This document shows positions 1,342 to 8,662 of a stretch of DNA of 34,221 bases, in pieces; positions within the stretch are counted from its first letter, which is position 1; every line of letters begins with the position of its first letter. The translations under genes were made by a program, and so were the position numbers. Under the pieces are notes generated by a model, which saw only the letters and a list, made by a program, of their open reading frames with translations, was not told where the DNA came from and made no database searches. This DNA is from Spartobacteria bacterium (lineage in GTDB: Bacteria; Verrucomicrobiota; Kiritimatiellia; RZYC01), in contig RZZM01000012.1 in the NCBI GenBank assembly GCA_009929845.1, positions 1 through 34,221 on the forward strand. The letters are read 5' to 3'.

Positions 1342-1349
<8 letters not shown>
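1..1349 (-). CDS. gltD: Glutamate synthase small (beta) subunit, 3' end cut by window edge
   Basis: This is the NADPH-oxidising flavoprotein subunit of glutamate synthase, which passes electrons to GltB for reductive transfer of glutamine amide nitrogen to 2-oxoglutarate. It is missing from the ORF track because it runs off the left edge; I read it on the minus strand. About 449 codons are present, against roughly 480-490 in the family, so only the C-terminal tail is missing. N-terminal Cys clusters for 4Fe-4S centres are visible (CMNCGIPFCHGCGC near residue 46; CPAPCEGSC near 98). Next come a FAD-type Rossmann motif (IIGSGPAGLAAA, about 144) and an NADPH-type motif (VVIGGGDTGSDC, about 285). 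The ATG lies inside the end of gltB (ATGACTGA, 8-bp overlap), implying translational coupling. Confidence 0.96.
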
Positions 1350-5901
<4,552 letters not shown>

Positions 5902-5999: not shown

Positions 6000-8102
6000 T
6001 CAGCTCATAAACATCATTTCCGCGTAGGAGGCCAGCGGCCACATATCGTATGGCACCTGCGTTTCCAGATGGTCCACCGCTTCGCGCAGTGTCAACATCG
6101 CCGCGAGCATATCGTCCGTGGACTTCTTTTCAAGCTGGGATTCGAGTTCCTTGATCCCGGCGAAGATCGCCTCGGTCGTGTCACACAGGTCGGCCAGCAG
6201 TTCCTTGCTTCCGGTCATTTCTTTTCCGGCCACGCTGCTTACGGCATCAATGCTGGCGGCCACATCCTGTTGGTAGGCCATCGCCACGGGCACAATCATC
6301 GTCCGCGCGATGTTCAGCGCGCACCGCGTCTCGATAGCGATTACTTCCTCGTATTCCTCGCGGTAGATTTCGTAACGCGATTGCAGTTCGCGCTTCGAAA
6401 GCACCTTGTAGCGCTCGAAGAGTTCAATCGTCTCATCCTTGAGCAGGTAGGCCAGCGCGGCGGGCGTTTTCTTGAGATTGAGCAGCCCACGTTTTTCGGC
6501 CTCGTCCACCCATTCCTGCCGGTAGTTGTCGCCATTGAACAGTACGCGTTTGTGCTTGATGATGATATCCTGCAGGATCGGCTGCAAGGCCTCGCCCAGC
6601 TCCTTGCCGGCGGCCACTTCCGCCTCGAGGGCCGTGCAGATTTCATCCATCGCCGACGCCACAATGGTATTGAGCACCACATTGGCCCCGGCGCAGCTCT
6701 GGTTCGAGCCGACCGCGCGGAATTCAAACTTGTTGCCCGTGAAGGCAAAAGGCGAGGTCCGGTTACGGTCCGTCGCGTCGCGCGGCAGTTCCGGCAGGGA
6801 GGAGACGCCGATTAGAATGGAACCGCCCGACTTGGAACTGGTGGCCTTGCCCTTTTCGATCTGTTCGACCACATCATAAAGCTGTTCGCCCAGGAAGATG
6901 GAGATGATCGCCGGCGGTGCTTCATTGGCGCCCAGGCGATGATCGTTTCCGGCCGTCGCGACTGTCGCGCGCAACAATCCGGCATAGGTATCCACCGCCT
7001 TGATCAACGCGCAAATGATCGTCATGAACTTCGCGTTTTCGTGGGGGCTGTTGCCCGGGGTCAGCCAATTCTTACCGTCCGGACCGGCAATCGCCCAGTT
7101 GTTGTGCTTGCCGGAACCGTTCACGCCCGCAAAGGGCTTTTCGTGCAGCAGACAGACCAGGCCATGCCGGTCGGCGACTTCACGCAGCACCTCCATCGTG
7201 ATCATGTTGTGGTCCACCGCGAGGTTCAACTCCTCAAACATCGGGGCGATTTCAAATTGTGCCGGACAAACCTCGTTGTGCCGCGTCTTCGCGGGAACAC
7301 CCAGACGCCACAATTCGTGGTCCAACTCCGCCATGAACGCCATCACACGGCTTTTGATCGCGCCGAAATAATGATCGTCCAACTGCTGGTGCTTCGCCGG
7401 CTTCATGCCGAAAAGCGTCCGTCCGGTCTGCATCAGGTCCAACCGGCTTTCATAGAACCGCTTGTCGATCAGAAAATACTCCTGCTCCGCGCCCATCGTG
7501 GCCACCGCGCGACCGCCCCCCTCGATACCGAACAGTTTGCCCAGGCGGCAAATCTGTTTGGATACCGCGTCCATGGAACGTAGCAACGGCGTTTTCTTGT
7601 CCAGCGCTTCGCCATTGTACCCGCAGAAGATGGTTGGGATACAGAGGGTCGCCGACCCGCCAAAGTCCTTGATGAACGCCGGACTGGTCGGGTCCCACCC
7701 GGTATATCCGCGCGCCTCAAACGTCGCGCGCAGCCCGCCGGAAGGAAAACTCGACGCATCCGGTTCCCCCTTGATCAGCTCGCTGCTGGAGAACTGGTAG
7801 ATGGCGCCGCCCTCCCGGTCCGGCATCAGAAAAGAGTCATGCTTCTCCGCCGTCGCGCCCGTCAACGGCTGGAACCAATGCGTGTAATGGGTCGCCCCTT
7901 TGCTGAGCGCCCAGGTCTTCATCGCCTCGGCCACCTCTTCAGCAATACTCGCATCCAGCATGTCCCCGTTGCGTATCGTCGCCGCCAGCGACCGGTACGC
8001 CGGTTCGTTCAGGTAATTGCGCATGACCTTCAAACTAAAGACATTTTCACCAAAAATCGACGCGGCATCATCGCCCGTCATCTGTTTATGTGTCGCACTC
8101 AT
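6000..8102 (-). CDS. glnN: Type III glutamine synthetase
   Basis: This ATP-dependent enzyme makes glutamine from glutamate and ammonia in the cytoplasm. At 700 aa it fits the GSIII (GlnN) family and is much longer than GSI (about 470 aa). Diagnostic segments are the N-terminal GSIII region (MRNYLNEPAYRSLAATIRNG), the active-site loop FAGVNGSGKHNNWAIAG and the GSIII-type NDHRLGANEAPPAIIS, followed by the long GSIII C-terminal extension. The ATG follows AAAGGAAGTACG. The gene sits directly upstream of gltBD, so both halves of the GS-GOGAT cycle are adjacent. A near-perfect sigma-54 promoter precedes it by about 70 bp, indicating activation by a nitrogen-responsive enhancer-binding protein. That activator gene is not in the window. 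Confidence 0.97.
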   Translation of the reverse strand: MSATHKQMTGDDAASIFGENVFSLKVMRNYLNEPAYRSLAATIRNGDMLDASIAEEVAEAMKTWALSKGATHYTHWFQPLTGATAEKHDSFLMPDREGGAIYQFSSSELIKGEPDASSFPSGGLRATFEARGYTGWDPTSPAFIKDFGGSATLCIPTIFCGYNGEALDKKTPLLRSMDAVSKQICRLGKLFGIEGGGRAVATMGAEQEYFLIDKRFYESRLDLMQTGRTLFGMKPAKHQQLDDHYFGAIKSRVMAFMAELDHELWRLGVPAKTRHNEVCPAQFEIAPMFEELNLAVDHNMITMEVLREVADRHGLVCLLHEKPFAGVNGSGKHNNWAIAGPDGKNWLTPGNSPHENAKFMTIICALIKAVDTYAGLLRATVATAGNDHRLGANEAPPAIISIFLGEQLYDVVEQIEKGKATSSKSGGSILIGVSSLPELPRDATDRNRTSPFAFTGNKFEFRAVGSNQSCAGANVVLNTIVASAMDEICTALEAEVAAGKELGEALQPILQDIIIKHKRVLFNGDNYRQEWVDEAEKRGLLNLKKTPAALAYLLKDETIELFERYKVLSKRELQSRYEIYREEYEEVIAIETRCALNIARTMIVPVAMAYQQDVAASIDAVSSVAGKEMTGSKELLADLCDTTEAIFAGIKELESQLEKKSTDDMLAAMLTLREAVDHLETQVPYDMWPLASYAEMMFMS

Positions 8103-8172
8103 CGTACTTCCTTTCTGTTATTACAAATCTGTCCAGTCCGCCTACGGCTTCTATATCAGCAGTACACTTACA

Positions 8173-8189
8173 TGCAAACACCGTGCCAA
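8173..8189 (-). promoter_or_regulatory. Sigma-54 (-24/-12) promoter of glnN
   Basis: The minus strand reads TTGGCACG, four bases, then TTGCA. This matches the sigma-54 consensus TGGCACG-N4-TTGCW at every defined position, with the invariant GG and GC correctly spaced. The predicted transcription start is near 8162, giving a leader of about 60 nt before the glnN ATG. The surroundings are strongly AT-rich, unlike the flanking genes. Confidence 0.85.
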
Positions 8190-8258
8190 CTTTTTATAAA
8201 AATATTTAAATGTTTGCATAGCAACATAATATAAATTCCACGCCAGAAGATTACCGCT

Positions 8259-8289
8259 TTTACGGCAAGCCGTAAATACATTTTTGTAT
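8259..8289. promoter_or_regulatory. Two adjacent dyads upstream of the glnN sigma-54 promoter
   Basis: TTTACGGC-AA-GCCGTAAA (8259-8276) is a perfect 8+8 dyad. ATACA-TTTT-TGTAT (8276-8289) directly adjoins it. They lie about 70-100 bp upstream of the -24 element, where enhancer-binding-protein sites typically sit. Neither matches the classical NtrC site, so the binding factor is unknown. Confidence 0.45.
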
Positions 8290-8359
8290 GTTTCTGCCCG
8301 ATATACCTACAAAATTGGCAAATTCTCAATAACATTTCCATCTGATCGGGTATGTCGTA

Positions 8360-8560
8360 TCCTCTGCGGTTGGGGTGACCGGGGCTCTGACGGGGAGGAA
8401 GCTGGAAATTATCAAGCCGCTCAAGCTTGAGCAGCATCGCCCGCGCAGCCATGTCCTTCACACGCCCCTTCTCGTTACGCCAGCCCCATCGCTCGCACAG
8501 CTCCCATAAGCCCAATGTCCAATGCCGTAACACAACGCCCTTGTATGTGGCGGAGGCCAT
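8360..8560 (-). pseudogene. Relic of a DUF4338 / DruA-like gene
   Basis: The minus-strand frame from the ATG at 8560 encodes LWELCERWGWRN, then VKDMAARAMLLKLE, then FQLPPRQ. This is the characteristic N-terminal signature of DUF4338 proteins (the Druantia DruA family), where 'LC..W.W...NG..KDMACR.LLLKL...G...LPPR' is typical. Intact members run to several hundred residues. Here about 67 codons are recognisable. The usual segment between the YKG start and LCERW is shortened, and after about 8360 the frame loses all resemblance and runs into the AT-rich glnN promoter region. The ORF-track entry 8168-8656 contains this relic but is not a functional gene. The family assignment is from memory of the motif. 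Confidence 0.6.
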
Positions 8561-8662
8561 AATGAGAATTGCTGGGGATAAAACTTGACGCCTCCACAAG
8601 GAAATATTACACGAAAAAATGGCGACACGCGGCAAAAGGCCAGTGCACAGGGACAAGGAATT

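Follow-up and report, generated by a model that had tools for sequence, protein, structure and literature searches.

Tandem TACA-N4-TGTA sites upstream of a sigma-54 promoter suggest NifA/AnfA-type control of type III glutamine synthetase and ammonia assimilation in a Kiritimatiellae-like bacterium

Results

Sigma-54 promoter and tandem upstream sites of GSIII

The type III glutamine synthetase (GSIII) gene of the analysed stretch of 34,221 nucleotides (the window), which is contig C417 of a 5.6-Mb Kiritimatiellae-like metagenome-assembled genome, is preceded by an exact sigma-54 promoter and by a tandem pair of TACA-N4-TGTA-type sites, through which an activator of the NifA/AnfA type would run the GSIII-gltB operon and a wider ammonia-assimilation regulon. 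A probability of roughly 85% is given to this reading, which is drawn from sequence comparison, while the promoter, the tandem site, its spacing, the set of targets and the link to the NifA-like helix-turn-helix (HTH) are direct results of the computation. The features of the GSIII upstream region are as follows:

6000-8102, minus strand: glnN, GSIII, 700 aa, with its start codon at 8102; Pfam GSIII_N (1.6e-76) and Gln-synt_C-ter (6.4e-41)
8173-8189, minus strand: sigma-54 -24/-12 promoter TTGGCACGGTGTTTGCA, upstream of the GSIII start codon, 0 mismatches to YTGGCACGNNNNTTGCW
8277-8288, no strand: putative enhancer site 1, TACATTTTTGTA, exact, its motif conserved upstream of GSIII sigma-54 promoters
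8308-8319, no strand: putative enhancer site 2, degenerate TACAAAATTGGC, one half-site intact, 31 bp from site 1

The promoter carries the TGGC and TTGC elements at the correct spacing, and its exact core TGGCACGNNNNTTGCA is found in three copies in the 5.6-Mb genome, the other two being located at C149:14927-14942 and C707:20258-20273. The original prediction, made from the window alone, had described a perfect -24/-12 element at this place and a start near 8162, and both agree with the present results, as transcription is predicted to begin near 8162 from the position of the element. The same prediction had taken a missing rpoN as evidence against sigma-54 control and had proposed a search for enhancer-binding proteins (EBPs); rpoN is present in the genome, together with ~12 EBP domains, most of them accompanied by receiver domains. 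The rpoN matches lie on C57, C485 and C184, one of them full-length and the other two partial at the level of contigs, which suggests two rpoN copies. Within 330 bp upstream of the GSIII orthologues, a -24/-12 match of at least 11/13 was observed in 36 of 106 regions against 0.64 expected from dinucleotide shuffles, and the full 13/13 match in nine (0 expected), with many Kiritimatiellae GSIII genes preceded by similar sigma-54 promoters. The exact promoter, the presence of rpoN and this recurrence before orthologues support sigma-54 control of GSIII. A 9-bp inverted repeat, ATGCAAACA / TGTTTGCAT, at 8172-8180 and 8211-8219, also flanks the promoter, with one arm overlapping the -12 element, and could be either an operator or a product of chance.

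The full dyad ATACA-N4-TGTAT of site 1 spans 8276-8289, with its centre ~95 bp upstream of the -24 GG. Its core TACA-N4-TGTA exists as a single copy in the window (0.07 expected) and arises in 1.3% of the shuffles of the upstream region; the weight of the site comes from its conservation in relatives. When every palindromic half-site of 3-5 bp was combined with every spacer of 0-12 and counted upstream of 37 non-redundant GSIII sigma-54 promoters, ACA-N4-TGT ranked at the top of all combinations, being present in 29 of the 37 regions against 1.8 expected, and the longer TACA-N4-TGTA was present in 17 (0.07 expected); no other dyad exhibited a comparable enrichment in this count. The four spacer positions are almost invariably occupied by A or T, and the copies are often paired, with centres 31-32 bp apart and positions mostly 84-147 bp upstream of the -24 element. 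Site 2 of the window, overlooked in the original prediction, occupies the second position of such a pair, and in the sister genome G001 both of these positions (-95 and -126) are taken by sites with one mismatch. TACA-N4-TGTA-type sites were also observed in two Planctomycetaceae GSIII promoters (L097 and L105). The NifA-type dyad TGT-N10-ACA was rejected as the site of these promoters, occurring in only 4 of the 37 regions.

Several bacteria control glnA and amtB by factors acting on short palindromes near the promoter, and a comparable role, as the operator of a repressor with GlnR-, AmtR- or NtcA-like function instead of a sigma-54 enhancer, is conceivable for the TACA-N4-TGTA pair. This is highly improbable, given that the sites are located far upstream, often in tandem and at similar distances from -24/-12, with no promoter overlap, as is usual for enhancers, and that sigma-54 promoters need an activator.

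Targets of the paired sites across related genomes

The pair pattern TACAN4TGT-N19-24-ACAN4TGT was searched without regard to genes in 57 related genomes, where ~66 strand-hits were obtained against 9 for the reversed control. These collapse to 45 distinct places (two of them assigned to genes from coordinates), 38 of which adjoin a nitrogen-assimilation set or the NifA-like gene, namely GSIII, GSI glnA, amtB-glnK, gltB, a PurF-like class-II amidotransferase and the NifA-like activator gene itself. Most of the pairs have a sigma-54 match ~85-135 bp from the pair centre. Since the motif had been derived from GSIII promoters alone, the recovery of the other targets provides an independent confirmation. 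A stricter form of the pair was detected in 37 of 241 genomes of the phylum, and of 25 loci examined, 20 are next to genes of this set; at three of these, in other classes of the phylum, GSIII and the NifA-like gene diverge from each other with the pair between them. The best reading of these sequence patterns is that the sites and their sigma-54 promoters form an ammonia-assimilation regulon, in Kiritimatiellae as well as in other classes of the phylum. The PurF-like amidotransferase gene, beside gltB and preceded by pairs at L246, L247, L249 and L267, is an unexpected member of this regulon, and a further member may be the circularly permuted ATP-grasp gene at L244 (genome G014, contig C5), which has a pair with a weak sigma-54 match upstream.

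NifA-like protein as candidate activator

In the genome of the window itself, the relaxed pair was found at one further place, C758:9807-9848, between amtB-amtB-glnK and a divergent NifA-like gene, with a sigma-54 match at C758:9691-9706. The encoded protein is the following:

C758:9920-11479, divergent from amtB-amtB-glnK: NifA-like protein, 520 aa, with Pfam GAF_2, Sigma54_activat and HTH_8

No receiver domain was found in this protein with Pfam. Its closest named model is the NifA equivalog TIGR01817, with a score of 523.9 bits just under the cut-off of 528.85, and in a FastTree phylogeny of the AAA+ domain it is tentatively placed with NifA, the deep supports being low. The recognition-helix region of its HTH displays the pattern T-x-R-x3-Y in common with proteobacterial NifA, a pattern that the response regulators of the genome do not have. 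Most of the 57 genomes have conserved the protein, and in eight of them (G000, G005, G007, G015, G020, G028, G039 and G041) its gene has the pair immediately upstream; the arrangement on a Spirochaetales contig (L119) runs from the NifA-like gene through two sites and a sigma-54 promoter to GSIII. Among the 241 genomes, with orthologues called at E <= 1e-145, the pair is present in 34 of the 139 that have a NifA-like orthologue vs 3 of the 102 that lack one (Fisher p = 1.3e-6, uncorrected for the relatedness of the genomes, which makes such values overstate independence). In five genomes (family f2: G003, G022, G033, G044 and G054; L288-L292) the GAF and AAA+ domains are kept and the Fis-type HTH is replaced by a different HTH, and no pair was detected in any of the five.

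Besides the relatedness of the genomes, several observations weigh against NifA/AnfA-type control. Site 2 of the window has half-site mismatches; 105 of the 139 orthologue-bearing genomes are without an exact pair under the strict pattern, which indicates that the consensus is loose or the spacing varies; in genome G017, GSI is preceded by a pair but no full-length NifA-like match was found; and, with about 12 EBPs in the genome of the window, another of them could bind. The last point leads to a different account, in which the sites are recognised by another activator (such as a response regulator of the NtrC type whose site has diverged) and the NifA-like gene is no more than a neighbour and target. 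In Proteobacteria, amtB-glnK and glnA are as a rule regulated by NtrC, and the receiver domains of most of the EBPs would suit such a regulator. Nevertheless, this account is quite unlikely, as the pair and the NifA-like orthologue occur together across genomes, and as the pair lies next to the NifA-like gene in many of them, is absent where the NifA-like HTH has been replaced, and has the AnfA consensus as its core. The original prediction had judged the dyads to be unlike NtrC sites, which is borne out by ACA-N4-TGT as the enriched dyad and by a linked activator without a receiver domain. Its suggestion that GSIII answers to an unusual activator holds in that the candidate is not NtrC and is unusual for the role, but the protein can be placed, as a NifA/AnfA-type protein encoded beside amtB-glnK.

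No nifH above the family cut-off was detected in the genome of the window, and nifH was found in only one of the 57 genomes, a near-absence which indicates that the regulon serves assimilation and not fixation. Regulation of nitrogenase genes, a trait of the NifA/AnfA/VnfA family, was likewise not encountered, the targets of the pair being assimilation genes. One genome (G031, contig C8; L294) encodes the assimilation activator and, in addition, a true nifH that shares its contig with a second NifA-type gene, and its site type could separate the roles in fixation and assimilation. AnfA, VnfA and class II NifA are under iron-sulphur or redox control. Cysteines are missing from the NifA-like protein before residue 129 and between residue 428 and the C-terminus, and such control is unlikely for it because the linker before the HTH lacks cysteine.

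Under the proposed mechanism, the GSIII-gltB operon would be transcribed on the minus strand from the sigma-54 promoter at 8173-8189. The NifA/AnfA-type activator would bind the tandem palindromes, which lie ~31 bp (three helical turns) apart and ~95-126 bp upstream of -24; it is most likely the 520-aa GAF-AAA+-Fis-HTH protein, and the intergenic region that its gene shares with amtB bears the only other pair of the genome. Two dimers on one face of the DNA would probably assemble into the active AAA+ oligomer, which may contact the sigma-54 RNA polymerase by DNA looping, and the nitrogen status may be sensed through the GAF domain (2-oxoglutarate) and/or GlnK. The predicted members of the regulon comprise GSIII, GSI, AmtB-GlnK, GltB, the PurF-like amidotransferase and the activator itself.

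The palindrome adjacent to site 1

A further palindrome is situated between enhancer site 1 and the promoter, directly abutting ATACA-N4-TGTAT:

8259-8276, no strand: TTTACGGC-AA-GCCGTAAA dyad with perfect 8-bp arms, not conserved, function not supported

The promoter, this dyad and ATACA-N4-TGTAT were all found as the original prediction had described them. It had placed both dyads at enhancer distance; of the two, the conserved ATACA-N4-TGTAT behaves as an enhancer, and such a role is not supported for the TTTACGGC dyad, which is not conserved and has no further copies near sigma-54 promoters. An arm of at least 8 bp is reached in 3.8% of the shuffles of the 298-bp upstream region, which makes the dyad only weakly unusual and possibly of chance origin. 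A perfect dyad beside site 1 might instead bind an additional regulator specific to the lineage (or serve looping or repression) acting on GSIII or the divergent gene beside the enhancer pair. This is unlikely, as the genome search returned no second exact copy and fewer approximate copies than matches of the reversed control pattern, the sister genome G001 lacks the dyad at this place, and no dyad other than ACA-N4-TGT is comparably enriched in relatives. Its use as a regulon-wide site was ruled out by the lack of further exact copies and of conservation.

Genes of the window

The nearest relatives of the GSIII protein of the window are found in Kiritimatiellae and Verrucomicrobia, and the gene is followed on the same strand by the second gene of the operon:

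1342-5901, minus strand: gltB, glutamate synthase large subunit; Pfam GATase_2, Glu_synthase and GXGXG

The two genes are probably co-transcribed, since they share the strand, are separated by a gap of ~100 bp and keep their order in relatives (e.g., L049-L051, L053 and L055). Upstream of GSIII, a minus-strand orphan open reading frame at 8168-8656 has no Pfam match, and related fragments at three places in genome G016 suggest a mobile-element remnant.

Discussion

NifA/AnfA-type control of GSIII and its companion genes offers a testable answer to how ammonia assimilation is controlled in large groups of Kiritimatiellae and other members of the phylum, where NtrC does not seem to fill this role, and it would extend the known role of the NifA family beyond nitrogen fixation to nitrogen assimilation in general. 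The tandem pair can serve as a search pattern for many uncultured genomes, and the replacement of the HTH together with the absence of sites represents a natural experiment. A more speculative proposal, to which we give a low probability, is that the general control of ammonia assimilation was the original task of NifA-type activators with TAC-N6-GTA sites. Their recruitment to nitrogenase genes would have come later, and the binding register would have moved to TGT-N10-ACA in proteobacterial NifA; the ancestral role would still be seen in the non-diazotrophs of the phylum, and perhaps beyond it, in Planctomycetes and Spirochaetes.

Comparison with known systems

No description of this assimilation regulon was found in the open-access papers searched. 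The AnfA protein of Rhodobacter capsulatus, which binds two TAC-N6-GTA dyads (PMC7294313), resembles the present system as a GAF-AAA+-HTH activator with two palindromic sites of this kind upstream of a sigma-54 promoter (PMC7294313), and TACA-N4-TGTA contains the AnfA core exactly; in the window, site 1 is an exact match to it and site 2 matches in one half-site only, while exact pairs are common in relatives. The differences are that AnfA controls Fe-nitrogenase, whereas the targets here are ammonia-assimilation genes and nifH is not convincingly present, and that conservation here extends to the inner A and T adjoining the core. VnfA of Azotobacter vinelandii, a NifA paralogue, has paired GT(T/A)C-N6-GTAC sites, which are thought to be cooperatively bound (PMC9542535), and the site pairs are similarly spaced, but the outer G and C of its motif show no conservation here and its regulon is nitrogenase. 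NifA is linked to the candidate through TIGR01817, the closest protein model, and the T-x-R-x3-Y recognition-helix pattern, but it binds TGT-N10-ACA (PMC7294313), the dyad of 4 of the 37 promoters here, and drives nif genes. The NtrC regulon of enterobacteria shares the sigma-54 control of glutamine synthetase and amtB-glnK, but NtrC is a two-component response regulator with another binding site, whereas the present protein has a GAF and no receiver domain. The nearest functional precedent, compared by description only, is DVU1949 of Desulfovibrio vulgaris, a one-component predicted sigma-54 activator of a regulon for nitrogen metabolism and transport (PMC4641369). Placed on a common centre, the sites of AnfA, NifA and VnfA and those described here would, as we infer from their sequences, be overlapping parts of one half-site, TGTACA.
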